Virus record (IMG/VR): IMGVR_UViG_3300031767_000006
Span: 1 to 20,752 of that record
DNA length: 20,752 nt
Reading direction: 5' to 3' (one strand)
Origin: a virus
The position numbers were made by a program, and so were the translations under genes. The notes below the pieces were generated by a model. That model did not search any database. It had not been told where the DNA came from and saw only the letters and a program-made list of their open reading frames with translations. Below are positions 3,041 through 7,110 of the stretch, one piece after another. The number at the start of each line of letters is the position of its first letter. Position 1 is the first letter of the stretch.

Positions 3041-3601
3041 ATGACAAGCATGATGCACAGAAGTGTCTATCTTATGTTGATCGCCCTTTCAGCAATGGGC
3101 GATCACCAAACTGTTTACCGCACATTGGCGGTGCTGGGTTTTAAGGCACAGCACCGCAACATTTACAGTGTTGATGCGCTCCTAAGGATCATCGAAGAAG
3201 TTGGAGAGTGGCTTCTCGCACGAAAAATCTCTCGCCGTCTCTCCGAGCTAAAAAAGGGAGAATCGGCAGATGCCGTCGCCGGTCTGTGGGCGTTAGCCCA
3301 GGCGAACGAGTATGACGTGGGATGCGCATTCGGCTGTGCTGTCAACTTTGCTGAGGCATGCTGTGGTGAGCACCCGAATCGAGTTGAGCTTTTCAACCAG
3401 ATCGATTTTGATCACGAAGGATTTCGATTTGGTCCTGCCTGGGATTTTTGGGGAGATCTATCTCCCAAAGCAGTCGCGGCAGCGCGCGAGGGATTTGTAG
3501 CGCGCCTGCTCAATATAGCAGGTTTAGGCGACGAACCTGAACTAAAAGGAGGAATAAACGATGACCACGATTCTTCTCAACTCCGCGATGATGCCCGATG
3601 A
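3041..3601 (+). CDS. Hypothetical protein, tandem paralogue B
   Basis: A 186-residue protein starting at ATG 3041 after AAAGGAG (3026-3032); upstream in-frame sequence covers the intergenic hairpin and is unlikely to be translated. It is a paralogue of the preceding gene, sharing KISRRLSELKKGESADAV, CGEHPN and IDFDHEGFRFGPAWDFW. Where paralogue A ends shortly after DEP, this protein continues for about 18 residues that are encoded by the ribosome site and first codons of the next gene in another frame, giving a 41-bp overlap. That tail probably arose by loss of an earlier stop. The DNA at 3078-3105 forms a 9-bp hairpin at the position homologous to the one in paralogue A. Function unknown. 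Confidence 0.6.
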   Translation: MTSMMHRSVYLMLIALSAMGDHQTVYRTLAVLGFKAQHRNIYSVDALLRIIEEVGEWLLARKISRRLSELKKGESADAVAGLWALAQANEYDVGCAFGCAVNFAEACCGEHPNRVELFNQIDFDHEGFRFGPAWDFWGDLSPKAVAAAREGFVARLLNIAGLGDEPELKGGINDDHDSSQLRDDAR

Positions 3602-3947
3602 GGGCCTCTATATCTTGCAGCGAGTGAGCCGCGAGTTCTTCGCAGAACTGGTCGCCGACGCCCACCGGCGCGGCGAATTGCAGAGTTATGTCGGTTACGC
3701 CGAGACCGCTCAGCACATTGAGCGGATTGCTCACGTGCCGACTCCGGTCAACCGGGCGTTTACGCAGCTGCCTGATCAGGCGTTGATCGCGGTTTGCAAA
3801 CTTAAGTACCGGGTTAGCGACCCAGGCGCAAAAGGCAAGCTGCAACCCAGCGAAGACGACTACGAGTATTACGTGGCAACGTATGACCGCAATTGCCTGC
3901 GCTGGAGGATTGTGAATGATGAATCGCAGCCTTCGCAAGCTGCGTGA
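3561..3947 (+). CDS. DUF1874 / AcrIII-1-like protein (putative viral cA4 ring nuclease)
   Basis: A 128-residue protein starting at ATG 3561 behind AGGAGG (3547-3552). It follows the DUF1874 (STIV B116-like) pattern: ILLNSAMMPDEG at residues 4-15, a helix, SYVGYAETAQ at 42-51, VPTPVNR at 59-65, then ALIAVCKLKYRV and KGKLQPSEDDYEYY at about 91-104. AcrIII-1 members of this family bind and cut cyclic tetra-adenylate, the second messenger of type III CRISPR defence, so the predicted role is counter-defence in the cytoplasm. One oddity: archaeal members have a catalytic His in the G-H-x-S/T motif, and here the residue after the glycine is Tyr46. It may use another chemistry, act as a cA4 sponge, or have a different ligand. 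Family assignment is fairly confident, activity is not. The length suits the family, with about 20 extra C-terminal residues. Confidence 0.7.
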   Translation: MTTILLNSAMMPDEGLYILQRVSREFFAELVADAHRRGELQSYVGYAETAQHIERIAHVPTPVNRAFTQLPDQALIAVCKLKYRVSDPGAKGKLQPSEDDYEYYVATYDRNCLRWRIVNDESQPSQAA

Positions 3948-4221
3948 AGTGGTCAAATCCGCCCGGCTAGCAGATCTGCCGGTAGCCAAAGCTCTGAAGG
4001 TTCTTGCCGATATGCCTGAGGCAAGAGCCTTCAAACTCGCGCCCGACGTTCTCCGCCAGATGCTACTTGAAAGTCTCCCGGAGCGGTACGCTGTCTTTCT
4101 ACTTGATCGCGCTGGTTACCGAGTGGAAATGTCGCTTGCTGACCTGGCGTACTTCGCCAGATACGATGAGATATTAGCAGAGCTGGCAGTCTCGGTAATC
4201 CTGTATCTGGATAAGGAATGA
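3916..4221 (+). CDS. Hypothetical protein between DUF1874 and MoxR genes
   Basis: A 101-residue protein starting at ATG 3916 (a second ATG follows at once), 7 nt after GGAGG (3904-3908). It overlaps the end of the DUF1874 gene by 32 bp, and its TGA overlaps the ATG of the AAA+ gene (ATGA), so all three are translationally coupled. The N-terminus is basic and helical (MMNRSLRKLREVVKSARLADLPVAKALKVLADMPEAR); the C-terminus is acidic and hydrophobic (LAYFARYDEILAELAVSVILYLDKE). I see no recognised domain. Its tight coupling to the MoxR-VWA pair suggests it may be a partner of that complex. Confidence 0.6.
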   Translation: MMNRSLRKLREVVKSARLADLPVAKALKVLADMPEARAFKLAPDVLRQMLLESLPERYAVFLLDRAGYRVEMSLADLAYFARYDEILAELAVSVILYLDKE

Positions 4222-5051
4222 TCATGTTTGCGCCCTGGTACACCCCCCGACCATCAGATCGCCTTGTAGCTCGTCTATTGACCGAGCGCAACGGCGACGG
4301 TGTGTGCGCCGTCATCATCACAGGCGCGCCTGGCGTGGGCAAGACATCGTTCGCCCGCGCCCTCGCCGAGGGCATGGGCGGGCGACTCGTGGAGTACTAC
4401 GCTCACCACTGGACCTCAGATGAAGATATGTTCCTGGCGGTCGATCCAGCGCGCGTTGCCGCGATTGCCGGCGGCCACGACATGCCGCTCAGCAATACAT
4501 ACCGACGCGGCGCGCTTCTGCGAGCTACGCTGCTGTCGCGGCGAATGCCGGTCGTCCTGCTCCTCGACGAGTGGGACAAGTCGCCAGAACACTGCGACGC
4601 GCTGCTATTGGAGTTTCTCCAGAGCGGCACAGTACATGGCAGGCACGGCGAGCGCTGGCGCGCAAACACGCGCCAGCTGGCTGTGGTGATAACGAGCAAC
4701 GGTCTGCGCGAGTTGATCGAGCCGCTCCAGCGACGGTGCTTTCGATATGAGATGCCGTACCTGCCGCCGGAAGTGGAGGCCGATGTTCTTCGCAAGGTCA
4801 CTGGCGCGCCCGTCGGCGCGATCAGGTTGGTCGTGAAGGCGATGGGCCTGATTCGCGCGAATGGTCGCTCGTCGCCTTCATTGCAGGAGGGAATGATGCT
4901 TCTGCGTGGGATGGCGCTGGCGAACGGCGTGGACGACGTGCATTTGCTCGTCCGAGGGTATCTGATTAAGGATGCCCAGGATGAGGGCGCACTAAAGTCG
5001 CTGGGTAACCTTGCAGCATTGCTCTGGGGAGAGTGGAAGCGCCGTGGCTAG
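4218..5051 (+). CDS. MoxR-type AAA+ ATPase
   Basis: A 277-residue ATPase. The Walker A is GAPGVGKTS at residues 36-44 and the Walker B VVLLLDEWDKS at about 112-122, followed by a sensor-1-like VVITSNGLREL and an arginine-rich PLQRRCFRYEMPYLPP with the likely arginine finger. Order and length match MoxR ATPases (usually 280-350 residues), which work as hexameric chaperones with VWA-domain partners. ATG 4218 overlaps the preceding stop (ATGA); ATG 4224, two codons on, is better spaced from AAGG (4213-4216) and may be the true start. The VWA gene follows with an 8-bp overlap. Such pairs remodel target proteins or insert metals; the target here is unknown, and no cobaltochelatase large subunit is present. 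Confidence 0.85.
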   Translation: MIMFAPWYTPRPSDRLVARLLTERNGDGVCAVIITGAPGVGKTSFARALAEGMGGRLVEYYAHHWTSDEDMFLAVDPARVAAIAGGHDMPLSNTYRRGALLRATLLSRRMPVVLLLDEWDKSPEHCDALLLEFLQSGTVHGRHGERWRANTRQLAVVITSNGLRELIEPLQRRCFRYEMPYLPPEVEADVLRKVTGAPVGAIRLVVKAMGLIRANGRSSPSLQEGMMLLRGMALANGVDDVHLLVRGYLIKDAQDEGALKSLGNLAALLWGEWKRRG

Positions 5052-6381
5052 AAGATATATAAAGCTCAATCCCAGACGTAAGCATGCCATCTTGCAGATG
5101 ATGGCAGGACGTAACCGCCTGGATGTTGTCATTGACGGTTTTACGGTGGAGTTTCATTATCTACCTGGGTGGAACGAAGTAATGGTTTACGCTCCAAGGG
5201 TCACGCCAGCGATCCAGAGTTATCTGTCGCGCATCCCTCTCGCTTCTGCTGATGACGATTTGTCATCAGCAGAAGCGAGCGTAAATGCGCTCGTGCCGAA
5301 AGACTCCTCACGTTCTCTAGCACATGATGCTAGTGAGAACGCGGATTCTTCGGTATGTGGGGATGGCGAACCCCAAGCAGAATCACAGGGTGATTCTGCT
5401 GGCGATCTCAGTGAGTCACCTGAAGTTCAGGGCGAGGATTTGTCCTCGAACGGCACAAGCCGGGACTCTGAGGCCGCCGAACAACATCCGGGTAGCGCCT
5501 CGTCATTGGGCGACGACGACGCCGAGGAGAGCGTGCCGGATGGCCAAGCGGAGTGCAATGCCTCTGCTGCGGCGTCGCACGCGGCAGAGGAAGCCACCAG
5601 CGGGGCGCTGGACAGCGATGCTGTCCAGCAACGGTGCAAATCCGTTCCGTCCGCTGGCGACGACGCGCCGGCGTCGGAAAACATCCGGCGCACTTTTATC
5701 TCTAGAGCCGAGCTGTCGCGTTTCCCTAAGTCGTCGCACGGCGGTGTGTTCGCGCAATTCTCTGATGTCGAGCTTGACCGCGCGATGATCGCTCGCGCGC
5801 GCCGCGCGTTTCGACGCATGTTCCTGGGCGGCGAGACGAAGCCAGGCCCGCGCTGGAATGCGCGCGCGATTGCAATCAAGAGCGCAGGCTATCTGCGGCA
5901 GTGGACTGCGGACGACCGCAGACGCGAGTCGGGACGACCGACCTTGCTCATCTTGCCGGATGTTTCGGGGAGCATGGGTAAGCTCGCGCGCAGTGTCGTT
6001 GCCTTTGCCGTCGCGTGCTACGGCACGCTCAGCGAGGGGGACATTGTGTGTGTGTCGCACTCGAACGCAGAGCCAGTCGAATACATGCCTGAAAGGTTGT
6101 CGGGCATGAGCTACGAGCAAATCATCAGGCAGCGTAACGTGCGCGCTATCGTAATTGCCGCTGACCACGATGGCGAGGACACGTTTTTTCGGCTCGCTCA
6201 CCTCGTACCGCGCGTGTACTGGCTATCTCCATTCGGCTGCAACCAAATAGAGCGCCCGCGAATCCGCGACACGCGCAAGGTGCTGGCCGACTGGCCAGAG
6301 GACATCCAGCGGCGAGTGATATACGCCGATGGGTGTGGCGACCCAGAGAGCTGCTTGACAGCTCTGGAGATGATGATATAA
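5044..6381 (+). CDS. VWA-domain protein with long acidic linker, partner of the MoxR ATPase
   Basis: A 445-residue protein. I place the start at GTG 5044, which overlaps the ATPase stop (GTGGCTAG); a TTG at 5011 would overlap more and lacks a ribosome site. Residues about 1-60 form a small beta-rich domain. Residues about 65-215 are an acidic Ser/Ala/Glu/Asp-rich linker, probably disordered, whose DNA holds six or more hairpins. Residues about 215-300 are basic and helical. From about 295 to the end is a VWA domain with a perfect metal-ion site, D306-V-S308-G-S310-M, and a later DHDGED segment. The layout (acidic linker before a C-terminal VWA) recalls CobT/ViaA-type partners of MoxR ATPases. 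The TAA stop (6379-6381) overlaps the -10 element of the non-coding RNA promoter. Confidence 0.85.
   Translation: MARRYIKLNPRRKHAILQMMAGRNRLDVVIDGFTVEFHYLPGWNEVMVYAPRVTPAIQSYLSRIPLASADDDLSSAEASVNALVPKDSSRSLAHDASENADSSVCGDGEPQAESQGDSAGDLSESPEVQGEDLSSNGTSRDSEAAEQHPGSASSLGDDDAEESVPDGQAECNASAAASHAAEEATSGALDSDAVQQRCKSVPSAGDDAPASENIRRTFISRAELSRFPKSSHGGVFAQFSDVELDRAMIARARRAFRRMFLGGETKPGPRWNARAIAIKSAGYLRQWTADDRRRESGRPTLLILPDVSGSMGKLARSVVAFAVACYGTLSEGDIVCVSHSNAEPVEYMPERLSGMSYEQIIRQRNVRAIVIAADHDGEDTFFRLAHLVPRVYWLSPFGCNQIERPRIRDTRKVLADWPEDIQRRVIYADGCGDPESCLTALEMMI
5239..5279 (+). repeat. Perfect 18-bp hairpin with 5-nt loop in the VWA linker
   Basis: CTCGCTTCTGCTGATGAC (5239-5256) is exactly complementary to 5262-5279, with loop GATTT. 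It is the longest perfect inverted repeat I saw. It encodes an acidic Ser/Ala/Asp stretch and is the first of a series in the linker DNA. Confidence 0.8.
5311..5629 (+). repeat. Cluster of further short hairpins in the VWA linker
   Basis: At least five more inverted repeats follow: 5311-5341 (6+6 bp with a 2-nt bulge, loop CATGA), 5376-5400 (10 bp, loop CAGGG), 5433-5448 (6 bp, 4-nt loop), 5561-5590 (10 bp with one G-T pair, 10-nt loop) and 5607-5629 (9 bp, loop CGATG). Three of them have 5-nt loops. The stems are unrelated to one another, so this is repeated architecture rather than one repeat family. Confidence 0.7.
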
Positions 6382-6382
6382 T
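6355..6382 (+). promoter_or_regulatory. Perfect consensus sigma-70 promoter for the hammerhead RNA
   Basis: TTGACA (6355-6360) and TATAAT (6377-6382) are both exact consensus hexamers with a 16-bp spacer. The promoter lies within the last codons and stop codon of the VWA gene and points rightward into a 216-bp non-coding stretch. The predicted transcription start (about 6388-6390) falls on the first base-paired nucleotides of the hammerhead ribozyme. Confidence 0.8.
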
Positions 6383-6387
6383 CTATG

Positions 6388-6481
6388 TGCGTCACTGAGA
6401 CGACCTGGAGCTTAGTCTAGCTAGAAGGAATATCAACACAGGTCCACTCAGTCTGACGAGGGGTGGTAGCCCCGAAACGCA
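6388..6481 (+). ncRNA. Type III hammerhead self-cleaving ribozyme
   Basis: All conserved parts are present. Stem III pairs TGCGT (6388-6392) with ACGCA (6477-6481). The cleavage nucleotide is C6393 in the triplet GTC. Stem I pairs ACTGAG (6394-6399) with CTCAGT (6447-6452), continues past a 2x2 internal loop with GACCTG (6402-6407) and CAGGTC (6439-6444), and ends in a loop of about 30 nt. The core CTGACGA is at 6453-6459, stem II is GGGG (6460-6463) with CCCC (6470-6473) around TGGTAG, and GAAA is at 6474-6477. Because stem III is the open end, this is a type III hammerhead. Cleavage is predicted between 6393 and 6394. Hammerheads are known from phage genomes, but one sitting at a transcription start is unusual. 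Confidence 0.85.
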
Positions 6482-6542
6482 ATCCCGTACGAGGGGTTCT
6501 GAAAGAGGAAACGACTATCCCGCTTGAGGGGTTCTAAAAGAA
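6474..6542 (+). repeat. Two tandem 34/35-nt repeats, CRISPR-repeat-like in form
   Basis: Unit 1 (6474-6507) and unit 2 (6508-6542) share GAAACG, ATCCCG, GAGGGGTTCT and AAAG blocks; about 28 of 34 aligned positions match. Each unit can form a small CCC/GGG hairpin. Read on the minus strand they run CTTTCAGAACCCC-N6-GGGATTG-CGTTTC, which resembles CRISPR repeats in length and form, but there is no spacer between them. Unit 1 begins inside the hammerhead (GAAA, stem III). ACGAGGGGT also occurs in the hammerhead core at 6456-6464, so the units may have arisen by duplication from it. Confidence 0.65.
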
Positions 6543-6544
6543 AG

Positions 6545-6586
6545 CACGCGCCCGGTACTGCTAGAGCACCGGGCGCGTGTTGTTTT
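6545..6586. terminator. Strong intrinsic terminator between converging operons
   Basis: CACGCGCCCGGT (6545-6556) pairs perfectly with 6568-6579 around an 11-nt loop. On the plus strand it is followed by TTGTTTT (6580-6586), ending the non-coding RNA and early operon. On the minus strand the hairpin is followed by CTTTCTTTT, so it may also end the late operon, whose last stop codon is at 6598. Confidence 0.85.
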
Positions 6587-6597
6587 GTGAGCGCTTA

Positions 6598-7110
6598 CTA
6601 TCGAGTGCCTAGGTAAACAAGGTTGATTATTATGGAGTTCACCGCGAAGCCGCCTGGGCCGCCTAAGTTGTAGAACCGCACTTGGTATTCCGCTCCGCCT
6701 TCCGGTACATTCACGTACTGCACACCGCCAAAGTCGTAGACAAGGTAGTATTCCTGCGCATTGAACGGCATGCGGCCTACCTGCCAAATGTGATAGGGCG
6801 GCACTTGCTGAATCATCTGGATGCCAAAGGTTGATGGACCAGTGGCCGCACCATTGACTGAAAGCGTGTAGCCAAACACGCCGCCCTGCTTAATCTTTAT
6901 CGCTTGCGCAGTAAAGTTATGCTCAAAAATTCTTCCTCTCAGATTGCGGACGAACGTAACCGGGAAAATGTAGTCGAGGCCAGACGGGACGAAGGTAAAA
7001 CCGTAGCATAGAATCTCGGCTGTGGCAGGCGCGAAACTGTCTCCGCGCTCCATCACACCTAATCGCTCACGTACGTCCAAATTGTCGTCGCCGCCGCTTG
7101 TATAACTCAT
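6598..7110 (-). CDS. Putative distal tail / fibre protein
   Basis: A 170-residue protein, the last gene of the late operon. Its ATG (7110) overlaps the stop of the preceding tail gene by 4 bp. It is rich in beta-forming and Gly/Asn/Tyr residues (GYGFTFVP-like N-half, GGVFGYTLSVNGAATGPSTFGIQMIQ, AEYQVRFYNLGGPGGFAVNSIIINLVYLG), as expected for a virion beta-sandwich subunit. Following distal tail and Gp37-like genes, it is likely a tail tip, fibre or receptor-binding component. I recognise no specific family, and no chaperone or peptidase domain is seen. The frame ends 12 bp from the terminator tail. Confidence 0.5.
   Translation of the reverse strand: MSYTSGGDDNLDVRERLGVMERGDSFAPATAEILCYGFTFVPSGLDYIFPVTFVRNLRGRIFEHNFTAQAIKIKQGGVFGYTLSVNGAATGPSTFGIQMIQQVPPYHIWQVGRMPFNAQEYYLVYDFGGVQYVNVPEGGAEYQVRFYNLGGPGGFAVNSIIINLVYLGTR

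Follow-up and report, generated by a model that had tools for sequence, protein, structure and literature searches.

A candidate hammerhead ribozyme at the predicted start of a phage RNA gene that carries a CRISPR mini-array in sister phages

Organization of the unit behind the VWA-like gene

The stretch of viral DNA analyzed here, referred to as the window, was 20,752 nt in length (IMG/VR record IMGVR_UViG_3300031767_000006). A plus-strand operon with a VWA-like ORF at its end and a minus-strand gene at 6598-7110 converged on a compact unit, and the features of the operon and the unit were as follows.

3561-3947, plus strand: STIV_B116-like (PF08960) protein, same operon (27.6 bits, cut-off 26)
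4218-5051: AAA (MoxR-like) ATPase, adjoining the VWA-like ORF
5011-6381, plus strand: upstream ORF (456 aa) containing the VWA-like motif DVSGSMG; it anchors the locus in every relative
6355-6382, plus strand: promoter TTGACA-N16-TATAAT, 12 of 12 consensus positions (-35 box 6355-6360, 16-nt spacer, -10 box 6377-6382)
6388-6481, plus strand: predicted type III hammerhead with every core base present, assigned by comparison of seven phages
6388-6392 and 6477-6481, plus strand: stem III, TGCGT/ACGCA
6391-6393, plus strand: cleavage triplet GUC
6393/6394, plus strand: self-cleavage predicted here, 3' of GUC; two relatives have GUA, which also fits NUH
6394-6407 and 6439-6452, plus strand: stem I, ACTGAG...CTCAGT extended by GACCTG/CAGGTC
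6453-6459, plus strand: core CTGACGA
6460-6463 and 6470-6473, plus strand: stem II, 4 bp, GGGG/CCCC
6474-6476, plus strand: GAA
6482-6506, plus strand: hairpin-like unit 1, ATCCCGTACGAGGGGTTCTGAAAGA, from sequence and alignment; the first of two 25-nt repeats, which start at 6482 and 6517, 35 nt apart
6517-6541, plus strand: hairpin-like unit 2, ATCCCGCTTGAGGGGTTCTAAAAGA, followed directly by the terminator in the window
6538-6586: bidirectional intrinsic terminator hairpin between the converging operons

The promoter was embedded in the last codons of the upstream ORF, whose TAA stop (6379-6381) formed part of TATAAT, and stem III started at 6388, five bases 3' of the -10 box. In 300 dinucleotide-shuffled versions of the window, neither strand contained a promoter with 12 of 12 matches and a spacer of 16-18 nt, and the hammerhead motif scan gave one match in the window and none on either strand of the 300 shuffles, by which a chance origin of promoter or ribozyme was ruled out. 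An earlier note on this DNA had described a self-contained unit of promoter, ribozyme, repeats and terminator between converging operons, with a perfect TTGACA-N16-TATAAT promoter and a terminator ending the unit at 6586, and our analysis confirmed this anatomy. Its estimate that cleavage would remove about five nucleotides also held, a cut at 6393/6394 in an RNA started at 6388-6390 corresponding to a loss of about 4-6 nt. The predicted cleavage would follow the chemistry generally known for hammerheads, and the 5'-hydroxyl end which the note had expected would be its chemical consequence.

By every sequence feature tested except a match to an Rfam model, the unit is a hammerhead. The invariant core (CUGANGA, GAA and NUH) was present in all seven phages with GUC or GUA as the cleavage site, and three stems were recognized, with stem III open and its 5' strand coming first. 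The Rfam hammerhead covariance models did not match the window at any threshold, gathering or lax (E up to 10), perhaps on account of the long stem I; because Rfam found no match, the assignment is based on the complete core and the comparison between relatives. The minimum-energy fold of the isolated window ribozyme contained a CGUC/GACG pairing which excludes stem III, and it was 5.9 kcal/mol better than the bare active fold as drawn. Folded in isolation, the ribozymes of the window and of one relative (L010) favoured this alternative, and the active fold was the minimum in the other five of the seven. The motif scan detected a single ribozyme and no second hammerhead in each unit. Cleavage by the ribozyme, transcription of the unit and its function are predictions from sequence. 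The hairpin-like units were also considered as strongly folded elements, which was rejected since they folded no better than shuffles (z about 0) and showed no unusual stability.

Conservation of the unit in related phages

Searches with the upstream ORF and with two DNA patterns led to six other IMG/VR contigs carrying the unit: L007 (=L003), L008, L009 (=L006), L010 (=L005), L011 (=L004) and L012. The names of these contigs pointed to five metagenomes with neighbouring numbers, which we take to be from Yellowstone hot-spring mats. A gene homologous to the upstream ORF was present in all six and anchored the locus. The VWA-like protein had no match in Pfam, PHROG or named phages, and a DNA search likewise found no relative of the unit in named phages. 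No ribozyme was detected in 60 genomes related to a type I-G host, in a search run without a positive control of its own. The occurrence of a MoxR-VWA pair (4218-6381) in a small tailed phage was a side observation.

Promoter, ribozyme and terminator were kept as a block in all seven phage contigs. The core bases of the ribozyme were invariant, the stems and the NUH site were kept with GUA replacing GUC in two, and one pair of stem I had changed in a compensatory manner, being G-C in four phages and A-U in the other three. In the alignment of the seven sequences 99% of the cells were paired, and this value dropped to 17-42% in controls slid by one to three columns; stems III and II were invariant and thus uninformative on covariation. 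The -35 box was TTGACA in six phages and TTGATG in L009, and four phages had TATAAT as the -10 box where three had TACAAT. All seven kept TTG as the Leu codon in the -35 box, while several other Leu codons varied, leucine having six codons. The distance from the -10 box to stem III was 5-6 nt in every phage with differing bases in between, which fits the start at 6388-6390 that the earlier note had placed at the beginning of the hammerhead. The terminator stem was preserved with altered sequence in L009. Since these seven related sequences come from few sites and form one lineage, their conservation is partly shared descent.

A ribozyme in this position could mainly process the long upstream operon mRNA, cutting read-through where the VWA gene ends, shortening the mRNA and freeing the downstream RNA, with the promoter being secondary. 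The end-of-operon position was the same in all members, and no terminator separated the VWA ORF from the ribozyme, which the ORF reached or even entered; in L008 the stop of the ORF was located inside the ribozyme. However, the conserved boxes and the conserved spacing to stem III argue against this explanation, and a processing ribozyme would have no need of placement at +1. The same was indicated by L059, a more distant homolog (74%), in which TATCCG stood in place of the -10 box and the ribozyme was absent, so that promoter and ribozyme were missing together, as a single data point. We therefore regard mRNA processing as the main role as rather unlikely.

Two further observations were made at these loci. 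In L007, L008 and L011, TACAAT instead of TATAAT left no ORF stop in the -10 box, and the upstream ORF read on into the ribozyme. In L059, a stretch at 4290-4320 (GTGAGTACCGAGACAACGGCCT) resembled the 5' half of the ribozyme and is possibly a remnant or a precursor of it.

CRISPR mini-arrays of the sister phages and the array-less window

In four sister phages (L007, L008, L010 and L011), the sequence directly 3' of hairpin-like unit 2 was the start of a CRISPR mini-array, which filled the space between the hairpin units and the terminator and ended at the latter. Each array consisted of 2-3 direct repeats of 36 nt (GTTTCCACGCTCACAAAAGCGTGGCCCCTTTGAAGC and variants) and 1-2 spacers of 35-37 nt, and the six spacers in total were all different. 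These arrays had at least two direct repeats, unique spacers of constant length and no cas genes, as is characteristic of mini-arrays; no Cas family was found among the 10 proteins tested in the window and the 10 tested in L008.

The core of the phage repeat also formed arrays in Chloroflexota genomes. Two of these loci were read, and both adjoined the type I-G genes cas7g (Csb1), csb2 and cas3g, one of them also cas4g-cas1g. The repeats at both loci were oriented as the cas genes, and the phage array was in sense orientation to the ribozyme transcript. Type I-G Csb2 is reported to cut 4 nt past a 7-bp hairpin, leaving an 8-nt 5' handle (PMC9638904). The phage repeat, CCACGCT..AGCGTGG-CCCC^TTTGAAGC, fitted this layout exactly in the sense of the ribozyme transcript, so that both the core and the arrangement of hairpin and handle matched a cellular CRISPR system. 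An array antisense to the ribozyme transcript, whose reverse complement ends in GTGGAAAC, was rejected on the basis of the cas-adjacent host arrays and the published Csb2 layout. Chloroflexota are suggested as hosts by the repeat only, and the true host would have a type I-G system to judge from repeat similarity.

Protospacers were searched for in the known loci of this set with all six spacers, and in the whole viral collection with parts of two spacers; within this scope no convincing protospacer was found. Six other contigs shared an 18-mer of spacer 1 of L003, but no more than 21-24 of the 35 positions matched in them, which was taken as chance, and spacer 2 of L004 matched only itself in the viral collection. 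Separately, the viral contig 3300046516_001118 (L019) contained four repeats of the same I-G-like type at 442-704, and no hammerhead was detected in it by the motif scan. In the Chloroflexota arrays of L013 (1-272) and L056 (6640-7210), two repeat variants, of the CTAAAAAAGCGTGG and GTCTGAAAAGGCGTGG types, were mixed, and terminal copies were degenerate.

Three of the seven phages, i.e. the window, L009 and L012, were without the array. The nearest relative of the window was the array-bearing L010 (96% over 411 columns, support 100/99), and the presence and absence of the array on the tree required three state changes. A variant first repeat was common to all four arrays and the same degenerate last repeat to three of them, which argues for an ancestral array with repeated losses. 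The window is thus most likely an array-deleted derivative, and we read the loss as a deletion between short stretches of similar sequence that end in AAAAG; gain of the array in several lineages would be a less likely course. As an array-less derivative, the window would encode one state of a phage CRISPR-array transcript and not a stand-alone class. The earlier note knew of no described class with the layout of this roughly 193-nt RNA; the array that L007, L008, L010 and L011 carry in the same unit is absent from the window on which the note was based. The array-bearing, array-less and ribozyme-less sister loci are available for direct comparison.

The distribution, with ribozyme and hairpins in seven of seven phages and the array in four of seven, could also mean that the unit encodes an independent regulatory or antitoxin-like small RNA, and that CRISPR arrays were inserted later at a well-expressed site. 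A tandem arrangement in units of roughly 35 nt is reminiscent of type III antitoxin RNAs. However, no toxin gene lay 3' of the unit in the window, where the next gene converges, the hairpin units folded like their shuffles, and the first and last repeats that the arrays have in common point to a single array in the ancestor, followed by losses. An independent small RNA was considered quite improbable.

The unit was further compared with RNA anti-CRISPRs. In a decoy of the Racr type, the hairpin units or the sister repeats would mimic host repeats and titrate Cas proteins, with the ribozyme providing an end independent of Cas6. Racrs are reported as solitary repeats just 3' of a promoter in phage genomes (PMC10651486), and the phage unit resembles them as a small RNA with CRISPR-like elements in the same position; the hammerhead used in that study was an engineered variant, whereas the ribozyme of the phage unit is natural. 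A PF08960 protein in the same operon suggests a neighbourhood of CRISPR counter-defence. It was also encoded in five of the six other ribozyme phages and in the phage of L059. The viral ring nuclease AcrIII-1 belongs to PF08960, the STIV_B116-like family, and the protein may mark a type III CRISPR system of the host; the one at 3561-3947 had no sequence match among solved structures. On the other hand, the array members have complete repeat-spacer-repeat units with differing spacers, as guides would, and no type I-G or otherwise recognizable repeat was detected in the window, which by the test of a solitary host repeat is not a Racr. A derivation of the hairpin units from a second CRISPR repeat of the host was rejected too, because the CCCGNNNGAGGGG units matched no CRISPR array in 251 Chloroflexota genomes, a set to which the true host may not belong. 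A decoy role was accordingly judged improbable.

A proposed cassette for phage crRNAs and its relation to known systems

Based on the anatomy, conservation, spacing, and repeat identity and orientation described above, our preferred explanation, held with slightly better than even confidence, is that the unit is a naturally occurring cassette for the expression of phage crRNAs, with a transcript trimmed by its own ribozyme and repeats that follow the format of a host type I-G system, and that the array has been deleted in the window. The RNA gene would be composed of a promoter, a hammerhead at +1, a short hairpin unit or two, a cargo and a terminator, the cargo being a cas-less mini-CRISPR array in most members. 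A strong promoter of the housekeeping type, as indicated by its consensus and conserved spacing, would start the RNA at about 6388-6390. With its intact core, the hammerhead would cut after 6393 both in the RNA from its own promoter and in read-through from the upstream operon, and all molecules would receive a uniform 5'-OH end beginning directly in the 12-bp stem I. RNA with a 5'-OH end is no substrate for RppH or for the 5' sensor of RNase E. Offering these enzymes neither phosphates nor a single-stranded tail, the product would probably be stable and abundant. In array members, the host type I-G Csb2 (Cas5-Cas6) would then cut each repeat 4 nt after the hairpin, and the phage spacers would be loaded into the host Cascade, probably against competing elements, as repeat identity and the published Csb2 site suggest. 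The window RNA would be the empty cassette of this scheme.

Against this proposal stand the missing Rfam match, the competing fold in the window and L010, and the two spacers searched for which no protospacer was found. A crRNA precursor has no obvious need for a 5' ribozyme, and with three of seven members lacking the array, the ribozyme may have a function that predates it. We give somewhat less than an even chance to the further statement that in a hot-spring-type phage family the hammerhead is the first element of a CRISPR-array transcript, whereby guides, or a decoy RNA if the array is lost, would be made from a 5'-OH-capped precursor independent of host 5'-end decay. Under the cassette proposal, the conserved +1 placement before an array transcript provides a concrete hypothesis for what a phage hammerhead is for, and a self-cleaving RNA would be linked to CRISPR conflict between phages or between phage and host.

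The 5'-OH end produced by hammerhead cleavage could alternatively be ligated by RtcB, giving a circular RNA as in ribozyme-made circRNAs. Cas6-type cleavage leaves a 2',3'-cyclic phosphate at the 3' end, and Csb2, being Cas6-like, could supply such an end in array members. However, one ribozyme was present per unit, whereas two ribozymes or tandem copies would be expected of a retrozyme or viroid type, and the window RNA would end at an intrinsic terminator with a 3'-OH, which is not an RtcB substrate. The RtcB-type ligation raised in the earlier note needs a partner with a 2',3'-cyclic phosphate or 3'-phosphate and was not supported for the window; a circular product seems very remote.

Both hammerheads in phages and mini-arrays in viruses have been described before, and their combination is new as far as the literature search reached; no report of a natural hammerhead before a CRISPR array was found in literature of incomplete coverage, which is weak evidence of novelty. 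Viral mini-CRISPR arrays were described in SPV1 and SPV2 of Sulfolobales (PMC6858448), and phage mini-arrays are also known. The phage unit resembles them in being cas-less and intergenic, with 1-2 spacers, a cellular repeat, an upstream promoter and spacers that differ between related viruses. Differently, it is bacterial and of type I-G, a hammerhead at +1 and hairpin units take the place of a host-like leader, no inter-viral protospacers were found in the search described above, and the window itself has no array.

The complete core and the location in an intergenic phage region are shared with prokaryotic and phage hammerheads reported before (PMC3088659; reviewed in PMC6155905), while the position at the transcription start before a mini-array, the long stem I and the missing Rfam match distinguish the phage unit from them. 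In the 2017 review, the roles of prokaryotic hammerheads were an open question and a link to phages was noted (PMC6155905). The order of promoter, hammerhead, hairpin and cargo, with a uniform 5' end and a hairpin after cleavage, is also that of the synthetic RiboJ cassette (PMC6206723), of which the phage unit would be a natural counterpart, the insulator having been built independently. In E. coli, RiboJ raised transcript abundance about twofold and made all 5' ends identical (PMC6206723). In contrast to RiboJ, which is derived from a plant satellite RNA, the phage unit is natural, has a different hammerhead and a non-coding cargo, and is located in a phage.
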